Shown: positions 5,093-11,645 of the stretch, in pieces
How positions within the stretch are numbered: position 1 is the first letter of the stretch
How the letters are laid out: the number at the start of each line of letters is the position of its first letter
Assembly (NCBI GenBank): GCA_015064415.1
Contig: SVSG01000027.1
Location: forward strand, 1 to 32,106
Direction: 5' to 3'
Length of the DNA: 32,106 nt
Source: Oscillospiraceae bacterium
GTDB lineage: Bacteria > Bacillota > Clostridia > Oscillospirales > CAG-272
Notes under the pieces: generated by a model
Told to the model about the DNA's origin: nothing
The model's input: the letters and a program-made list of their open reading frames with translations, nothing else
Database searches by the model: none
Translations under genes and position numbers: made by a program

Positions 5093-6100
5093 TCAGTCGG
5101 CGATTTTTACCAGTACCTTGCCTGCCTTGGTGTGGCGGGGCGCTCCGAATTCCTCTACCGCCTCATCCATCGAAAGCACCTTGGCAATGACGTGCTCTTC
5201 TTTCAGCGCGCCACAGGCAAGTAATGCCAGCGCACGCTCCATGGTGTGCGGGTTGATAAAAGAGGTCTTGATGACAAGCTCCTTGAGGAAGGCCGCGTGC
5301 GTGGAAAGCGGGAGACGTGCGGCCGAATCGCCGACACCGAACAGCACCACCGTGGCACCAAAGCCCGCCACCTGCAACGCCGTTTCCTGTGCGGCGGTCA
5401 CGCCCACGCACTCCATCACCTTGGTGATCCAAAGCTCGCGGCAAAGCGCCTCAATTTTTTCTGTATCCGTGGGGGAGAGGGCATAGTCCGCCCCCGCCGC
5501 AAGTGCCATCGCACGGCGCTCTTCGCTTAGCTCAAGCACCAGAATTTTGCCTGCGCCCGCGCGGCGCAAAAGGGCCATCATCATCGCGCCGATCGCACCG
5601 TAGCCGACAAGCGCCACGTTCTCGCCCATTTGCATGTTCAGAAGATCCATGCCGTGCAGACAGCAGGAAAGCGGCTCGGCAAGCGCGCCCATCTGCAGGG
5701 AAAGCCCGTCGGGCAGCGGGTACACGTTTTCCTCGGGAGCGACGACAAATTCCGCCATTCCCTTGACCACACCACGCGCCTGCTCGCAGAACGAGGGCTT
5801 GCCCGCCTGACAGTAGCGGCATTTTCCGCAGCTGTGATTGGGATCGGCACTCACACGGTCGCCCACGTGAAAGCGTGTGACCTTTGCACCTACCGCCTCC
5901 ACGATACCTGAGATCTCGTGCCCGAGCGGCACGGGATAGTGCACGGGATGTGTGTTCTTTTTGCCTGCGACCTTGTGAAAATCACTGCCGCAGATGCCGC
6001 AGTAGTGAACGCGGATGCGCACGTCCTGCTCGCCCATCTCTTTTTCGGGGAAGTCGGCAAGACGCACATCCCCCGGCCCATATAAAACAATCGCTTTCAT
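5093..6100 (-). CDS. Zinc-dependent medium-chain alcohol/polyol dehydrogenase
   Basis: 335-residue NAD(P)-dependent dehydrogenase of the sorbitol/threonine dehydrogenase type. The GroES-like N-terminal domain carries the catalytic zinc residues C37 (in CGICGSD), H61 and E62. Four structural-zinc cysteines follow at C91, C94, C97 and C105. The Rossmann domain has a VGYGAIGAMM nucleotide loop near residue 160. The open frame extends upstream to 6187, but the start at 6100 matches the family N-terminus MKAIVLYGPG and has a GGAGGG site 6-8 bases before it. The gene is followed after 13 bases by the RpiR regulator. It likely oxidises a sugar alcohol or similar hydroxyl compound; the substrate cannot be read from the sequence. 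Confidence 0.93.
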   Translation of the reverse strand: MKAIVLYGPGDVRLADFPEKEMGEQDVRIRVHYCGICGSDFHKVAGKKNTHPVHYPVPLGHEISGIVEAVGAKVTRFHVGDRVSADPNHSCGKCRYCQAGKPSFCEQARGVVKGMAEFVVAPEENVYPLPDGLSLQMGALAEPLSCCLHGMDLLNMQMGENVALVGYGAIGAMMMALLRRAGAGKILVLELSEERRAMALAAGADYALSPTDTEKIEALCRELWITKVMECVGVTAAQETALQVAGFGATVVLFGVGDSAARLPLSTHAAFLKELVIKTSFINPHTMERALALLACGALKEEHVIAKVLSMDEAVEEFGAPRHTKAGKVLVKIAD

Positions 6101-6194: not shown

Positions 6195-7436
6195 TTATTT
6201 TGATCTTCCTTTTTTGCTGTCGTGGCAGATCTTGGCGTATACCGCGATGGCGATCAGCGGGAACAAGGCGCCGATCAGCATACCGATGCGCATACCAAGC
6301 TGCTCGGCACCAATACCGAGGCGCGTGGCAAGTGTGATGGCACCGGCAGAGGCCGCCACTGCGTCAGTGACGATGCCCACCAGCTGCGGGCCGACCGAGG
6401 CACCGAAATCACCGCCCGCCGCCATCAAGGCAAAGATGAATACGCCGCCTGCGGGGAAACGGTCGGAGCCGACGATCAAGCTGCCGGGCCAGAGCATAGA
6501 CACGCAAAAGCCGGTCAGCGCGCAGGCAAGCAGTCCCAATAACGGGAAAGGAGAGAAGGCCGCGATCAGATAGCAAAGCGCGGCGCCGATCGAGCCAAAT
6601 AACAGGACCTTTTCCACGTTTTTGCCGATCCCTGCGTAAAGGGAGCGTCCAAGTCCAAGTGTTGCGGCAAAGAGCGCGACACCGAAAACATCACCCCAAA
6701 GCTTGGGGATGCCAAGCGCCATTTCCAGATAGCCGGAGGCCCACTGTGCCATTGTGCACTCTGCGGCACCGCCAAGGAAAATGGCGAAGACGCAAAGCCA
6801 CATGGCTTTGTTTTTCATCAGATGCAGGGCGCCCGACGTGCGCTCCGGCGTTTTCATTTCCGGCATTTTCACCTTGAAATAAAGGAGGGCAGCGCTGAAG
6901 GGCACAAGCGAGAAGAGCAGGGCAAGCACGTGCCAGTATTTGGCGCCCACGAAGGTCAAAAACAGCGTAGCGAGCAACACAGCACCCACAACGCCCCAGG
7001 CGTAGATCGAATGCAGCTTGCTCATCTCGTGGTCGGGATTTTCCGCAGGGATGGCGGCGATCGTCGGGCTGATCAGCACCTCGCAAAGACCGGAGGAGGC
7101 GGAAAAGATCAGCGTGCCGAGCACAATGCCGAGATACGCGTGATCGGGGAAGAGCCACGGCAGCAGGGCGAACGCCCACAGACCGATCACGGTGATCACG
7201 GGGGTGATCTTTACCGTTTTTTCAATGTTGAAGCGATGCGAGAAGAAGGAGAAGATCAGATCGACACCAAGCTGGGTGAAGAAGTTGAGCAGCACCAGAA
7301 GCCCCAAAAGGGAATAGGAGATGCCGTACTGTATGTGAAAGGTAAGGAAGAGCAGCGGGGAGAGGTTGCCGACAACAGACATCGACATATTGGTCATGTA
7401 GCAAGCCGCCTTCAGCCGCTTGAAGCTTTGTGTCAT
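6195..7436 (-). CDS. MFS transporter (12 predicted membrane spans)
   Basis: 413-residue inner-membrane permease. Hydrophobic helices alternate with short polar loops, giving about twelve spans with a central charged loop near residues 190-210 (KVKMPEMKTPERT), as in the Major Facilitator Superfamily. The early segment YSLLGLLVLLNFFTQLGVDL and the later GDFGASVGPQLVG fit this. The true start is at 7436, where the ATG overlaps the rsmA stop as ATGA; the longer open frame upstream is rsmA read out of frame. Translation is therefore coupled to rsmA. The substrate is unknown. The downstream dehydrogenase and RpiR genes suggest a sugar or polyol (inference from context). Confidence 0.88.
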   Translation of the reverse strand: MTQSFKRLKAACYMTNMSMSVVGNLSPLLFLTFHIQYGISYSLLGLLVLLNFFTQLGVDLIFSFFSHRFNIEKTVKITPVITVIGLWAFALLPWLFPDHAYLGIVLGTLIFSASSGLCEVLISPTIAAIPAENPDHEMSKLHSIYAWGVVGAVLLATLFLTFVGAKYWHVLALLFSLVPFSAALLYFKVKMPEMKTPERTSGALHLMKNKAMWLCVFAIFLGGAAECTMAQWASGYLEMALGIPKLWGDVFGVALFAATLGLGRSLYAGIGKNVEKVLLFGSIGAALCYLIAAFSPFPLLGLLACALTGFCVSMLWPGSLIVGSDRFPAGGVFIFALMAAGGDFGASVGPQLVGIVTDAVAASAGAITLATRLGIGAEQLGMRIGMLIGALFPLIAIAVYAKICHDSKKGRSK

Positions 7437-8308
7437 TTTGCCGCCTCCGCAAGTATGTCGCTCAAAATGTCGGAAAGCGTGACGAAATCCTGCATCGAGA
7501 GGCGCTCGCCGCGAATATCGGGGCGAAGCCCCGCCGCCTCCACAGCGGCGATGCATTGCTCCTTGGAAAGGTTGCCAAAGCCCGCCTGCAGGGCGTTGGG
7601 CAACGTCTTGCGGCGTTGCTCGAACGCGACGCGGATGGTCTTGCGGAACAGCTCGTCATCGCGGGGAACGAAGGGCTTTTGATCATGCAGGCGGATGCGC
7701 ACCACGGCGGAGTTCACCGAGGGCGGGGGGAGAAAATCGCTTGCGGGCACCACGAAAAGGCGCTCTGCCACACCGTAGTAATTCAACACGGCGGTGATGG
7801 CACCGCAATCCTTGCCGCCCACGGGCGAGCAAAGGCGGTCAGCCACCTCGGATTGGATCATCACCGTGATGTTGTGGAAGGGAAGCCCACTTTCCAGCAG
7901 CTTCATCAGAATGGGGGTGGTGATGTAATAAGGGAGGTTGGCGCACACCGACACGCGCCCCTTTTCAAAATAGGGAGCGAGCAGGGTGGCAAGATCCGCC
8001 TTCATCACGTCCTCGTTGATGACGGTGACATTGTGAAATTCGTTGAGGGTGTATTTGAGTGCGGGGATGAGGGACTTGTCGATCTCCAGCGCCACCACGT
8101 TTTTGTAGCGCGCGCAAAGCTCACGCGTCAGTGTTCCGATGCCGGGGCCGATCTCAAGGATGGTCTCCTCTGCGCTGTCGGTGCAGTAATCGGCAATATC
8201 CTCGACCACCGCGCGGTTGGTGAGGAAGTTCTGACCGAACTCCTTGCGGAAACGAAGCCCGAAGGCCTGCATCACCGAGCGGACGGTTTTTTGATCACAT
8301 AAATTCAT
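7433..8308 (-). CDS. rsmA: 16S rRNA (adenine1518/1519-N6)-dimethyltransferase
   Basis: KsgA/RsmA, 291 residues, adds four methyl groups to the two adjacent adenines in the 3' hairpin of 16S rRNA during small-subunit maturation, using S-adenosylmethionine. Visible motifs are FGQNFL near the N-terminus, the SAM-binding EIGPGIGTLT (52-61), EIDKSL, and the catalytic NLPY (124-127), with the family C-terminal domain containing RRKTL. The start at 8308 (MNLCDQ) gives the normal length. The open frame runs on to 8848 only by chance, across a tRNA gene, and is rejected. A consensus promoter lies 35-63 bases upstream. The stop overlaps the MFS gene start. Confidence 0.97.
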   Translation of the reverse strand: MNLCDQKTVRSVMQAFGLRFRKEFGQNFLTNRAVVEDIADYCTDSAEETILEIGPGIGTLTRELCARYKNVVALEIDKSLIPALKYTLNEFHNVTVINEDVMKADLATLLAPYFEKGRVSVCANLPYYITTPILMKLLESGLPFHNITVMIQSEVADRLCSPVGGKDCGAITAVLNYYGVAERLFVVPASDFLPPPSVNSAVVRIRLHDQKPFVPRDDELFRKTIRVAFEQRRKTLPNALQAGFGNLSKEQCIAAVEAAGLRPDIRGERLSMQDFVTLSDILSDILAEAAK

Positions 8309-8342
8309 AAAATGCTCTCTTTCAAAGTATAATACTCTAAAT

Positions 8343-8371
8343 ATTATATAGTCCGCGCGTGCAAAAGTCAA
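8343..8371 (-). promoter_or_regulatory. Sigma-A type promoter for rsmA-MFS
   Basis: Read on the minus strand: -35 TTGACT (8366-8371), a 17-base spacer, and -10 TATAAT (8343-8348). The predicted start is about 28 bases before the rsmA ATG. Confidence 0.88.
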
Positions 8372-8420
8372 GGAAAAACGCGAAATGCAAAATTTTTTTG
8401 AAAAAATATCAAAAAAGGGG

Positions 8421-8449
8421 TTGCATTTTGAAAAAGAATGTGGTATAAT
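8421..8449 (+). promoter_or_regulatory. Promoter for tRNA-Val
   Basis: -35 TTGCAT (8421-8426), 17-base spacer, -10 TATAAT (8444-8449). The predicted start is about 25 bases before the mature tRNA 5' end. Confidence 0.88.
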
Positions 8450-8479
8450 ACCATTTGTTGTGGCAATCGCCGCAGCTAT

Positions 8480-8556
8480 GGAGGCATAGCCCAGATGGTT
8501 AGAGCGCATGCTTGACATGCATGAGGTCGTTGGTTCGATTCCAACTGTCTCCACCA
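8480..8556 (+). tRNA. tRNA-Val (anticodon GAC)
   Basis: A 77-base cloverleaf with encoded CCA. Acceptor GGAGGCA pairs with TGTCTCC (one G-T). The D arm is GCCC..GAGC. The anticodon stem CATGC/GCATG encloses the loop TTGACAT with anticodon GAC. The T arm is GTTGG-TTCGATT-CCAAC, and the end is ACCA. A strong promoter precedes it and a terminator follows immediately. Confidence 0.97.
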
Positions 8557-8596
8557 AAACGAAAAAGGACGGCAACAGCCGTCCTTTTTCGTTTTT
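8557..8596 (+). terminator. Terminator of the tRNA-Val transcript
   Basis: ACGAAAAAGGACGGC, loop AACA, then GCCGTCCTTTTTCGT and further Ts to 8596. The long perfect stem starts one base after the CCA end. Its T-tract is directly followed by the hairpin-array repeat. Confidence 0.93.
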
Positions 8597-8812
8597 ATCC
8601 AAGCCGCAGGCTTGGCATATCATCGCCGCGCGAAGTGCGGTGTATATCATCAAGGGCGGCGAGCCGCCCTTGTATCTCATCACGCGCCAGCGTGTATCCC
8701 GCCTGCGGCTTGATGATATACAACACTTCGTGTTGATGATATACCGCAACAAGTTGCGGATGATATACAATGCTTCGCATTGATGGTATACACGCCTTCG
8801 GCGTGATTGATG
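8596..8812. repeat. Hairpin-array repeat, copy 1
   Basis: A chain of about eight short hairpins, each about 14-20 bases, joined by a nearly constant 9-base linker. Stems include CCAAGCC/GGCTTGG (8599-8615), CAAGGGCGGC/GCCGCCCTTG (8651-8672), CACGC/GCGTG (8681-8694), CAACAC/GTGTTG, CCGCAAC/GTTGCGG, CAATGC/GCATTG and CACGCC/GGCGTG (8790-8804). Linkers read TATATCATC in the first half and the reverse complement GATGATATA in the second half, so the element is also a large imperfect palindrome. AAGCCGCAGGC (8601-8611) also pairs with GCCTGCGGCTT (8701-8711). Stem sequences differ between units but stay paired. No protein is credibly encoded. It begins right after the T-tract of the tRNA terminator. 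A second, shorter copy lies at 9966-10128. Confidence 0.9.
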
Positions 8813-8832
8813 CGCGAGGATGCGAAAGGCTC

Positions 8833-8861
8833 TTGAATTACCTTGCAAAATATGATATAAT
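8833..8861 (+). promoter_or_regulatory. Promoter for the four-helix-bundle protein and lipoprotein
   Basis: -35 TTGAAT (8833-8838), 17-base spacer, -10 TATAAT (8856-8861). An AAGGGAG ribosome-binding site (8869-8875) follows, giving a short leader for the gene at 8883. Confidence 0.85.
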
Positions 8862-8882
8862 ACCCTCGAAGGGAGTGATTGT

Positions 8883-9230
8883 ATGGCAAAAAACTATTTA
8901 TTGATATATTCAGAGCTGCTTGCAACCGATATAGAATTGCTTTGCCAAAATATTAAAGCTCCTTCCAACACTCTTTTCCAGATTCGCAAAAGCTCAAGCA
9001 GTGTGTATGCGAATATCCGTGAAGCCAATTACGGACAGAGCAAGGCGGATATGCTTTCAAAATTTGAAATCGCGCTCAAAGAATGTAGCGAAACGGAAGG
9101 TTGGCTACAATTGTTGTTCAACACAAACAGCATTGATGAAGAAATGTATAAAAACTACAGAAATCTTTGTGGTCGTATCAGGCGAATTTTGATTGCGAGT
9201 TGTAAAACTTTGAAGGAGAATGCGAAATGA
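8883..9230 (+). CDS. Four helix bundle protein (23S rRNA intervening-sequence family)
   Basis: 115 residues, entirely helical. The pattern matches the family often encoded inside 23S rRNA intervening sequences and also found free in genomes: an early YSELL helix, IRKSSSSVYANIREANYGQSKADML, FEIALKECSETEGWL, then IDEEMYKNY and a basic final helix. Known structures form homopentameric rings; the function is not established, though a partner or nucleic-acid role has been suggested. It is not in an rRNA gene here. Its start is supported by AAGGGAG and by a consensus promoter. The last four bases overlap the lipoprotein start (ATGA). Base composition is clearly more AT-rich than the flanking housekeeping genes, which suggests later acquisition. 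Confidence 0.85.
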   Translation: MAKNYLLIYSELLATDIELLCQNIKAPSNTLFQIRKSSSSVYANIREANYGQSKADMLSKFEIALKECSETEGWLQLLFNTNSIDEEMYKNYRNLCGRIRRILIASCKTLKENAK

Positions 9231-9841
9231 AAAAACTGTTATGCATCATTTTTTCTTGCGTGTTTTTGTTTTCCCTCACTTCTTGTGCATTTATTGACCG
9301 GTTACAAGGAGATATGAGTCAACTTGATTATAATGAAGAAGGCAATTTGCTATATAATGAGAGCACTTATTATCGTGCTGATGATCGTTTTGGGGTGAGA
9401 ACAGGCGAAAACGATAAAGTTGTTGAGCTTGGTTGGCAATCTCAGTTTCCCTTCTTTTCCGATATGCACTACTACGCTTTTGATGAGGATAATCCGTTAT
9501 TCATTTTTTGCGAAAATGGAGAATCTACGTTATACACTAAAGGTGTATACGTAAGATCGGATTACGATCTTTATACCCAAGTATATGCCGTAGAGAACTC
9601 AAATATCGAGATTCCTCTTGTATCGGCTATGACACAAAGTGACGTTGAAACTACAGCGATAGATCACGAAACGTATATATACCTGAAAATGTTTTTGAAA
9701 GATGATCCTCGCATACAAATAGAACTATCGGGTCCATATCAATATGATGATAATTGGTATTTTATACATATGGGTGAAACTTGGATCATAAGTGATGAAT
9801 TTGTTGCAATGCTAATAGACAATAATATTGTTGGCGAATAA
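9227..9841 (+). CDS. Putative lipoprotein of unknown function
   Basis: 204 residues. The N-terminus MKKLLCIIFSCVFLFSLTSC is a typical lipoprotein signal with lipobox LTSC, predicting lipidation at C20 and anchoring on the outer face of the membrane. The rest is acidic and rich in Tyr/Asp with beta-type patterns (YLKMFLKDDPRIQIELSGPY, DNWYFIHMGETWIISDEF). I recognise no family. The ATG overlaps the stop of the four-helix-bundle gene, and AAGGAGAA lies in the end of that gene, so the two are co-translated. AT-rich composition is shared with its partner. A clear terminator follows at 9928-9966. Confidence 0.8.
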   Translation: MKKLLCIIFSCVFLFSLTSCAFIDRLQGDMSQLDYNEEGNLLYNESTYYRADDRFGVRTGENDKVVELGWQSQFPFFSDMHYYAFDEDNPLFIFCENGESTLYTKGVYVRSDYDLYTQVYAVENSNIEIPLVSAMTQSDVETTAIDHETYIYLKMFLKDDPRIQIELSGPYQYDDNWYFIHMGETWIISDEFVAMLIDNNIVGE

Positions 9842-9927
9842 TTTTGATCGCTGTTTGTTATAAGTTGAATTGGACACCTTTTGTTCGTTTTTACCTCTAT
9901 TCAGACACCTTTTATCACGTTTAAGGC

Positions 9928-9966
9928 AAAAAACAAAGCAACCCAATCGGGTTGCTTTGTTTTTTA
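9928..9966 (+). terminator. Terminator after the lipoprotein gene
   Basis: An A-run then CAAAGCAACCC, loop AATC (9945-9948), then GGGTTGCTTTG and a T-run. The stem is perfect and about 16 bp including the A/T ends. The second hairpin-array repeat starts immediately after its T-tract. Confidence 0.92.
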
Positions 9967-10128
9967 TCCAAGCCGCAGGCTTGGTATATCATCGCCGCGC
10001 GAAGTGCGGTGTATATCATCAAGGGCGGCGAGCCGCCCATGTATCTCATCACGCGCCAGCGTGCATCCCGCCTGCAGCTTGATGATATACAACACCTCGT
10101 GCCGATTTCATGCCGCCTTCGGCTGATT
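9966..10128. repeat. Hairpin-array repeat, copy 2
   Basis: Its first about 120 bases match copy 1 (aligned from 8599 to 9969) with only a few substitutions. Several break pairing: CCCTT became CCCAT in the third hairpin, and GCGGCT became GCAGCT in the closing arm. The second half is shorter, lacking two of the hairpin units present in copy 1 and ending at a degenerate GCCTTCGGC hairpin. Like copy 1 it starts at the T-tract of an unrelated terminator, giving a sharp left boundary at TTTTTATCCAAGCC. Confidence 0.9.
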
Positions 10129-10133
10129 AGAGT

Positions 10134-10289
10134 GTGAAGCGTGTACCCTTGCTTGTTAAGAACGGCATAGCGAAAAACAAAAGCGAAAACGAGATGGTGT
10201 TTCGTGAGCAAGACGTTATTTGGAATTTGATGTCAAATCCAACACTTTGTTTGTGGAAAATTAAAAACGAAAATTGGAAAAAGAAATAA
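10134..10289 (+). other. Possible very short ORF between repeat copy 2 and the terminator
   Basis: A GTG-initiated frame of 51 codons (VKRVPLLVKNGI... ending in a lysine-rich tail) fills most of the gap. It has no convincing ribosome-binding site and no recognisable homology. It may be the remnant of a gene or chance. The rest of 10129-10305 shows only AT-rich sequence. Confidence 0.15.
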
Positions 10290-10304
10290 AACAAATTGGA
10301 AAAA

Positions 10305-10336
10305 CAAAAAAGCGGCACGATCTGTGCCGCTTTTTT
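10305..10336. terminator. Bidirectional terminator before the iron alcohol dehydrogenase gene
   Basis: An A-run with AGCGGCAC (10311-10318), loop GATCT, GTGCCGC and a T-run to 10336. On the minus strand it lies 20 bases after the dehydrogenase stop, so it mainly serves that gene. Confidence 0.9.
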
Positions 10337-10356
10337 GACGTTTTTGCGCAATTTTG

Positions 10357-11466
10357 TTATTTCTTGAGGAAATGTGCGCGGTAAATCTCGTACATCTCGT
10401 CCGGCGAGAGCACGTACGGGCTGTTCGTGTAGTTGCCCGCGCCGCAGATCAGCTTCACGCGGCGGTCGATCTCCTCCTCTGTGAAGGAAAGGTCAACGTT
10501 GGCAAGTCCCGGGAGGAGCGCCTTCATCAGCTTCGGGGTGGTGCCGATGTGCGCGGCGAAGGCCGCGATGCGCGCTTTGCCAAGCTCGGTTTTTTCATTG
10601 TACTCAATATAATCGCCCGCAAACACGGCGCACGCCTTGCCGTGCGGGATGCCGTCAAGCATCGTGATGCTGTAGCCCATCGGGTGCGGGAAGCCGGTGC
10701 CCGTGACGGAGATCGCCATGCCCGCGGCGGTCGCGGCGGCGATCAGCTGCTCGCGCATTTCGGGGGTGAACTGTGCGGGAGCTTGCGAGAGGACGTCCCA
10801 GAGCTCCTTGGCGGCGAAGAGTGCCGCTTGCTCGGAGAAAACGGTGGACTTGGGGGAAAGGTAGCTTTCCAGCGCGTGGGCAAACGCGTCCAGCGCGGTG
10901 CTGACGGTGGAGCCGTGAGAAAGGGAATAGGTGTAGCGCGGATCCACAAATGCAACACGCGGCCAAGCGTCACTTGCCTTGAAGGTCTTTTTGCGCTCGC
11001 CGTCGGGCAGGGTCAGGACGCTGTAATAGTTGACCTCGCTGCCCGTTCCTGCTGTGGTGGGGATGGCAATAAGAGGGAGCGTCGGATTTTTGCGCTTTGC
11101 TTCATCGTAAATATCCATCGGCTCAATGCCTTGGTTGGCGGCAAAGGCGGCAATCGCCTTGGAGGCATCCAACGGGGAGCCGCCGCCAATGCCGATGACG
11201 AAATCCGCACCGACCTTCGCGGCAAGCTTTCCGCCCTCAAAGCAGGTGAGCAGGGGCGGATTTTCCTGAATTTTGTCAAAAACGGTATAAGAAATGCCAA
11301 ATTCGCCAAGGACGGCGGTCACGTCGGCAAGGGCACCGGACGCGATGGCAGAGTGCTTGCCCGTGACGATGAAGGCATGCTTGCCAAGGGCAAGGGATTT
11401 TTTGTTTTCGATCAGCGCGCGCTCGCCGAAAAACACGCGTGTGGGAAGGTAAAAGGATGCGTTCAT
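10357..11466 (-). CDS. Iron-containing (type III) alcohol dehydrogenase
   Basis: 369 residues, the usual length. It reduces aldehydes or oxidises alcohols with NAD(P). Family signatures are the nucleotide-binding GIGGGSPLDASKA near residue 92, PTTAGTGSEV (137-145), and the metal ligands D193, H197, H261 and H275, the last in GIPHGKACA. The start at 11466 (MNASFYLP) is chosen because the family begins just there and GGGAG lies upstream. The extra 48 codons of open frame upstream are AT-rich leader. It is transcribed alone, with a bidirectional terminator after it. In fermentative Clostridia such enzymes usually regenerate NAD+ by making ethanol, butanol or diols; the substrate here is not determinable. 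Confidence 0.95.
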   Translation of the reverse strand: MNASFYLPTRVFFGERALIENKKSLALGKHAFIVTGKHSAIASGALADVTAVLGEFGISYTVFDKIQENPPLLTCFEGGKLAAKVGADFVIGIGGGSPLDASKAIAAFAANQGIEPMDIYDEAKRKNPTLPLIAIPTTAGTGSEVNYYSVLTLPDGERKKTFKASDAWPRVAFVDPRYTYSLSHGSTVSTALDAFAHALESYLSPKSTVFSEQAALFAAKELWDVLSQAPAQFTPEMREQLIAAATAAGMAISVTGTGFPHPMGYSITMLDGIPHGKACAVFAGDYIEYNEKTELGKARIAAFAAHIGTTPKLMKALLPGLANVDLSFTEEEIDRRVKLICGAGNYTNSPYVLSPDEMYEIYRAHFLKK

Positions 11467-11497
11467 TTTGGGTGTCTCCCTTCGTTTTGATGCCTTT

Positions 11498-11506
11498 ATT
11501 GTATCA
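11498..11506 (-). promoter_or_regulatory. Extended -10 promoter for the iron alcohol dehydrogenase
   Basis: Minus-strand TGATACAAT (TACAAT at 11498-11503 preceded by TGA) lies about 32 bases before the ATG. The -35 position is only a pyrimidine tract, so recognition would rest on the extended -10. The A/T-rich stretch 11507-11645 beyond it shows no gene. Confidence 0.45.
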
Positions 11507-11645
11507 CAGATGCAAAAAAAAGAAAAGTGTTTTTGGAAAAAGATTTTGCAGGGTGGCATTTTTGGTGGAAAAAGCCCCTTTTTTGCGATAAAATTCGACG
11601 AAAAAAGCAAGAAATAAAATTTTTTTAAAAAATGTGAAAAAATAT

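Follow-up and report, generated by a model that had tools for sequence, protein, structure and literature searches.

The textbook case of stacked, exchangeable gene cassettes is the integron. In the attC/IntI system, small and diverse units in one orientation are stacked at a fixed anchor, attI, and the joint between genes is rich in hairpins. Short hairpin modules with constant flanks and opposed orientation are found in REP and BIME sequences, which go with RAYT transposases. Group IIC introns target terminators and sit behind the terminator hairpins, and tRNA-targeted integrative elements such as ICEs and satellites use the tRNA 3′ end as their anchor. The BOX and SPRITE repeats of Streptococcus pneumoniae are described as modular, structured intergenic repeats with variable numbers of inner modules, and SPRITE as resembling a rho-independent terminator (PMC3049150).

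The window analysed here is the whole 32,106-nt stretch of contig SVSG01000027.1 from an Oscillospiraceae bacterium. It carries two hairpin arrays that appear to belong to small composite units. These resemble integron cassettes in being small, diverse, similarly oriented and stacked at a fixed anchor, with a hairpin-rich joint between genes; here, however, the anchor is a tRNA 3′ end and not attI, the units often have a promoter and a terminator of their own, and the hairpin array lies 5′ of the gene. With REP and BIME they share short hairpin modules with constant flanks in opposed orientation, but the stems vary widely and the linkers are near-constant. The position behind terminator hairpins recalls group IIC introns, although in our case the terminator appears to travel along. 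Like ICEs and satellites the units are anchored at tRNA 3′ ends, yet they measure roughly 0.3–1.5 kb and carry no recognised integrase gene. What sets them apart from BOX and SPRITE is that terminator, array, promoter and gene are combined in a single unit at tRNA genes, and that they occur in nine family groups of the order. A cassette-like system of this kind is real, and we found no description of it in the openly accessible literature. Our preferred reading, to which we give a probability of slightly under 60%, is that the array forms the 5′ part of a mobile gene cassette that stacks at tRNA CCA ends and is moved by a trans-acting recombinase.

Results

Two composite units in the window

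Two arrays, at 8596–8807 and 9965–10126, align without gaps over 161 nt (8587–8747 against 9956–10116) with 92% identity. Both open with TATCC right at the end of a terminator stem (8596 and 9965), and the fold of terminator plus array has a z-score of –8.8 for copy 1 and –6.0 for copy 2. The upstream stems are both perfect but differ from each other: an 18-bp stem (8556–8573/8578–8595) stands 3′ of tRNA-Val and a 17-bp stem (9928–9944/9949–9965) 3′ of a lipoprotein-like ORF. Both arrays are real and sharply bounded, and the first-pass annotation was right to describe two nearly identical arrays that each start at a T-tract behind unrelated terminator stems.

All features of the two units lie on the plus strand. 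Unit 1 begins at the CCA end of its anchor gene, tRNA-Val(gac) (8480–8556; ARAGORN and Rfam). Its terminator, a perfect 18-bp inverted repeat (8556–8595), has a core stem whose exact pattern occurs in two places in the own genome, here and in C19, both before arrays, and is absent from all 20 congeners searched. Array 1 follows with the first hairpin, three forward linkers of the YATATCATC type, the central CCTGCGGCTT, four inverted linkers of the GATGATATAC type and an end hairpin with GAT. A promoter-like site, TTGAAT-17-TATAAT (8833–8861), read from the sequence and in line with the promoter statistics of array ends given below, precedes cargo gene 1 (8883–9230), which encodes a four-helix-bundle protein according to family searches (PF05635/TIGR02436). 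Cargo gene 2 (9227–9841) is an ORF for a small lipoprotein-like protein without a match in Pfam, NCBIfam or PHROGs; a relative is present in a cassette of another genome (G027, locus L068). The end repeat of unit 1 (9870–9927) consists of two direct repeats GACACCTTTT... and a terminal TTTAAGGC, has a second own-genome copy (C37) and stops one base 5′ of the next terminator. Unit 2 comprises this terminator, a perfect 17-bp inverted repeat (9928–9965), and array 2, in which the 3′ half is shortened. The nearest large ORF downstream of array 2 (10357–11610) lies on the opposite strand. On the other side of the tRNA, rsmA (7436–8302) is oriented away from tRNA-Val. In several relatives, among them L210, L212 and L222, the two genes share a strand and rsmA comes after tRNA-Val; the difference may be due to an inversion or to an assembly artefact.

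Architecture and folding of the array

In general the array is a row of small hairpins joined by near-constant linkers, which read YATATCATC or close to it in the first half and the reverse complement, GATGATATAC, in the second; the central CCTGCGGCTT is complementary to part of the first hairpin. Six linkers are present in 58 of the 113 arrays with enough sequence. The hairpins come from a limited stock and combine freely, so that 111 parsed arrays give 108 distinct combinations. Outer hairpin pairs are of the Watson–Crick type in 2129 of 2210 cases; with every hairpin entered a single time the figure is 897 of 957. Perfect complementarity is found in 28 of 65 distinct 4-nt arm pairs. Since the stems vary on both sides jointly, the folded form appears to be kept through stem changes. 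Non-Watson–Crick pairs among distinct hairpins (21 G–T and 11 A–C) are too few to decide whether the folding strand is RNA or DNA.

Three loci (L067 from about 6364, L046 at about 165–228, and L218) carry a short insert (GACGCTCGC..GGCTCGC.ATTCCGTCGCT.CGCTCCTTAC) within the array, 3′ of the first hairpin. Further families of hairpin arrays have other linkers (ATGATG, GTGAAAT, CTTCAC, TATGTAATC and others) and are seen in L095 (minus strand, 5841–6000), L111 (2530–2740), L049, L052, L054, L069 and L154. One of them, type B with ATGATG linkers, occupies the same position in units as the type A array of the window. Its start lies behind a terminator in 12 of 17 matches; of the five exceptions, two are inner linkers. 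Several of the terminators belong to the same loop family. At the tRNA-Val locus of one genome (L217, G016) a different four-helix-bundle-like gene, judged from its reading frame, stands 3′ of a type B array. Such genes may therefore recur in two array families.

Contact with terminators and their origin

Tabulation of the upstream flanks, which the first-pass annotation had suggested, gave a clear result: arrays begin nearly always at a terminator T-tract. Among 146 starts collected from many genomes, three of them untestable, 134 of 143 directly adjoin a rho-independent terminator. The control counts from the same loci are 181 of 15840 for random positions and 975 of 5617 for positions that follow T5 runs. 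When a perfect stem is required, the gap between stem end and TATCC is zero in 131 of 138 starts. Nine of the 143 starts are without a clean terminator.

This contact, and the fact that like arrays are found behind different terminators, would fit the original interpretation of an element that inserts into pre-existing rho-independent terminators in the manner of group IIC introns. Such an element should leave free terminators without an array, and none is seen. Three terminator sequences were traced in array-bearing genomes, and each of their 28 occurrences has an array next to it or, in one case, a remnant. Class 1 (TTTTGTCTACCAAAA) accounts for 8 of these, in 6 of 10 genomes and with the single remnant among them, and class 2 (TCGACAAGTTTCRACTTGTCGA) for 18, in 9 of 11 genomes, all of them at arrays (including first-hairpin variants) and behind different tRNA ends. 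The remaining two are those of the core stem of the window's first terminator. Most of the genomes in these searches were selected for bearing arrays. The reverse transcriptase domain RVT_1 has no match in six of six array-bearing genomes, so the co-occurring reverse transcriptase that the annotation had envisaged did not turn up, and we rejected a group IIC intron or retroelement. An Rfam search over the window gave only tRNA above the gathering threshold, and a permissive scan of 8300–10400 gave no intron family; a known RNA family was also discarded as a candidate, as all matches of the permissive scan except tRNA are below gathering scores. We therefore consider insertion into host terminators highly improbable. 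From these comparisons the terminators look like parts of the element, not like host targets, and units with a common terminator usually share sequence from the tRNA CCA end onward instead of from the T-tract. The first-pass annotation thus most likely caught the sharpest seam of the system but misread the target.

The left border at the tRNA CCA end

The left border was located in 117 locus pairs that share the whole terminator and have unrelated upstream sequence. The pairs derive from 66 starts and 20 terminators and are not independent. In 104 of them the identity stops between –3 and +1 nt relative to the start of the terminator A-run, and in two it stops 9 or 10 nt upstream; a looser count gives 123 pairs. 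The base 5′ of the A-run is C in 135 of 138 cases, which is what a border at the tRNA CCA end would give. Of 136 starts, 71 have an intact tRNA 3′ end at most 70 nt upstream, and at least 15 kinds of tRNA are represented upstream of array starts. Many of the other 65 starts stand behind tRNA 3′ fragments or recurrent end sequences, as read by eye. Between –44 and +2600 nt relative to TATCC, loci L103 and L126 show 100% identity, yet upstream of this stretch one has tRNA-Leu and the other a sequence that resembles an end repeat.

Unlike in ICEs and satellites, tRNA fragments of at least 14 nt downstream of the arrays are found in only 6 of 53 loci (compared to 0 of 53 in each of three swapped controls), and these belong partly to other elements. 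The fragment in L090 does not come from a tRNA 3′ end, and in L126 and L141 the fragments belong, at least partly, to another element with an inverted and a direct tRNA end. We therefore dropped the idea that downstream fragments are the units' own target duplication. In L070 a recombinase gene lies near the downstream tRNA fragment.

Other repeats occur at these sites as well. A second repeat type behind tRNA genes is composed of a terminator, an inverted tRNA 3′ end, about 100 nt and a direct tRNA 3′ end, and is present in several tandem copies each in L225, L226 and L229, and also in L126 (860–1085) and L141 (5970–6115). Another small repeat (CTCGCTATAGYGTGCG...CGCAC) stands just 5′ of a tRNA 3′ fragment in L158 (minus strand, 6345–6450), L140 and L134; in L158 it lies between the terminator of the tRNA and the tRNA 3′ fragment.

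Promoter, cargo, end repeat and stacking

Many array ends carry TTGATT followed 17 nt on by TATAAT, and the promoter pattern is found at 41 of 124 array ends, compared to 33 of 2480 control stretches. ORFs near array ends, counted on both strands, are mostly unlike each other (138 of 196 are singletons). In Pfam searches of 57 cargo ORFs, taking the best 25 of 49 families matched, the PF05635 four-helix-bundle family is the commonest (6 ORFs), helix-turn-helix families account for 3, and no recombinase is found. Defence genes were rejected as common cargo: 17 PADLOC models match, each in at most 3 of the 57 ORFs, with RmrA and helix-turn-helix models in the lead.

The end repeat of two direct copies (GACACCTTTT...TTTAAGGCAA) is present in 22 distinct rows. 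Most, judged by eye, stand directly before a terminator, behind which comes array A or B, a different array, or other DNA; a clear terminator is missing in L123, L183, L087 and L049, and that of L159 is imperfect. Searched for as an exact pattern, the repeat occurs in 3 of 13 genomes and gave no match among viral contigs. The end sequences fall into several dissimilar kinds, and in many units the right end is not clear. Chromosomal genes such as rsmA directly follow some arrays, and downstream of many arrays no cargo can be recognised. Stacking of small cassettes with diverse content, a trait of integrons, is seen in two loci and the first ORFs are mostly mutually unlike. In L111, tRNA-Leu is followed by two units in a row, one with a type A and one with a type B array, and both include a promoter, a gene and an end repeat; in L153 tRNA-Gln is followed by two stacked units, the second of which is cut by the contig end.

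The arrays might instead be miniature elements, interspersed repeats of the BOX or REP kind that insert 3′ of tRNA terminators, with the downstream genes incidental. They are modular, structured and non-coding, with a varying number of inner modules, as is pneumococcal BOX (PMC3049150). The arrays directly before rsmA without cargo and the mostly unlike ORFs at array ends would then be expected. The terminator is itself an inverted repeat, and the loci compared included no clean empty site of a near strain in which a target-site duplication would show. However, incidental neighbours do not agree with the same gene behind the array at different tRNAs in distant species, with recurrent unit ends, with enrichment of the promoter pattern at array ends or with two array families in the same place of like units, and Y1_Tnp has no match in half of the array-bearing genomes (see below). 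We judge the miniature-element explanation to be improbable, and prefer to regard array, promoter and gene as parts of one cassette.

Distribution and movement between genomes

Searches of the genome and its relatives with the array core, proposed in the first-pass annotation, found seven good copies in the own genome. Matches at E ≤ 1e-3 are present in 25 of 59 genomes. A sample of 197 genomes from across the order gave matches at E ≤ 1e-10 in 22, which belong to nine family groups (own genome included in both counts). A 29-nt pattern gave at least 116 stretches in GTDB genomes. The 80 named records among the matches listed are MAGs of Clostridia, Clostridiales, Oscillospiraceae, Ruminococcaceae, Ruminococcus or Eubacterium, and many of their titles refer to ruminant gut samples. 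A phage or plasmid passenger was rejected, as the array has no match in phage and plasmid collections. Among viral contigs the array start gave one stretch, the inner linkers three and array type B three. One viral contig (L195, IMGVR_UViG_3300018493_002828) is prophage-like, with a major head protein, a primase and two serine-type integrases (phrog_95), and carries at its end an array with a cargo start that resembles C36 of the own genome.

The tRNA-Val/rsmA locus differs between related species. It has no array in the stretch examined in four (G017, G011, G004 and G006), array A in three (G007, with two, G003, and G008, a variant) and array B in two (G002 and G016). A one-hairpin remnant is present in G020 and G014, and other tRNA-end repeats follow tRNA-Val in G012 and G013. 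This presence or absence of the array at one locus in related species supports the view of the first-pass annotation that the element is mobile and non-autonomous, without an ORF of its own. The four-helix-bundle cargo of the window is 88% and 92% identical to that of G030 and G045, whereas the corresponding values for RsmA are 51% and 46%, and units with this cargo stand behind tRNA-Val(gac), tRNA-Val(cac), tRNA-Ser, tRNA-Gln, tRNA-Leu and tRNA-Trp. Given this discrepancy and the varied tRNA sites, the spread is best read as horizontal transfer between families into different sites.

Transfer of this kind could do without a dedicated enzyme. In the main rival explanation, islands behind tRNA genes swap DNA by homologous recombination after uptake, and tRNA, terminator and array are simply homology, the shared padding. 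Exchange does seem to occur: like cassettes have different terminators (L060/L102, L068/L075 and the window/L075), and a terminator in L150 (minus strand, near 7430) is a hybrid that joins the 5′ arm of one class to the 3′ arm of a second, as though recombination had taken place in the loop. Together these comparisons show that the seam between terminator and array is also a place of exchange. Homologous exchange would account for such cases, for the long shared modules and for units in which no recombinase is found, but it does not readily explain the same cargo behind unlike tRNA genes, or a left border within a few nucleotides in nearly all pairs, though a common CCA end would favour that too. 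On balance we regard homologous exchange alone as unlikely.

Search for an enzyme

The preferred cassette reading calls for a recombinase, and our searches covered those of the tyrosine type. PF00589 gave 14 matches in six genomes, from which 13 recombinase ORFs were extracted. Five of these are 45–81% identical to each other, and the three of the five that were scanned resemble XerC/XerD below curated cut-offs. When all 13 were used in tblastn against the array loci, 7 of 166 partly overlapping loci were hit, in 5 distinct places and at no fixed position. No circle or excision was observed. An integron was rejected: the best IntI (TIGR02249) score is 94 bits against a cut-off of 265 among the 8 of 13 recombinase ORFs scanned, which come from incomplete assemblies, and the core boxes RYYYAAC/GTTRRRY of attC occur at 0 of 158 joints (control 11 of 1570). 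The Y1 (RAYT-type) transposase domain Y1_Tnp has matches in six of 12 array-bearing genomes and none in the other six, the window's own included, as judged from assembled genes only. Hence a RAYT- or IS200-like element was also rejected. With neither RVT_1, IntI, a universal Y1 transposase nor a recombinase among the cargo, we infer that the recombinase would act in trans.

Discussion

The proposed mechanism builds on what the sequence comparisons document, namely the order of modules, the left border, the co-occurrence of terminator and array, the upkeep of the hairpins, presence or absence between species and transfer across families. A unit would run from terminator through hairpin array and, often, a promoter to one or two small genes and an end repeat. 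Its left border would lie at a tRNA CCA end or at the end of an earlier unit, which would lead to head-to-tail stacking. A putative trans-acting recombinase would join units at the C/A core of the tRNA 3′ end, and the array, with its repeated linkers and two opposed halves, may together with the end repeat provide the arms of the recombination site. Terminator and array might in addition shield the cassette promoter from transcription of the tRNA.

A wider reading, which we put forward more tentatively, is that of a cassette system distinct from integrons. It would be anchored at tRNA genes, each unit bringing along a terminator, a folded array, a promoter and a small gene of its own, and would use an undescribed recombinase acting at the CCA end, with the array as recognition platform, to spread little-known small genes in Oscillospiraceae and other gut Clostridia.

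If this is true, it would be a second, unrelated cassette design, and another route by which species, mostly uncultured Clostridia, trade small genes. The hairpin array would then serve as a tag for cassette genes of unknown function, including the four-helix-bundle family, and would point to an unknown recombinase. Such a system would also explain the fast-changing islands behind many tRNA genes in these genomes.
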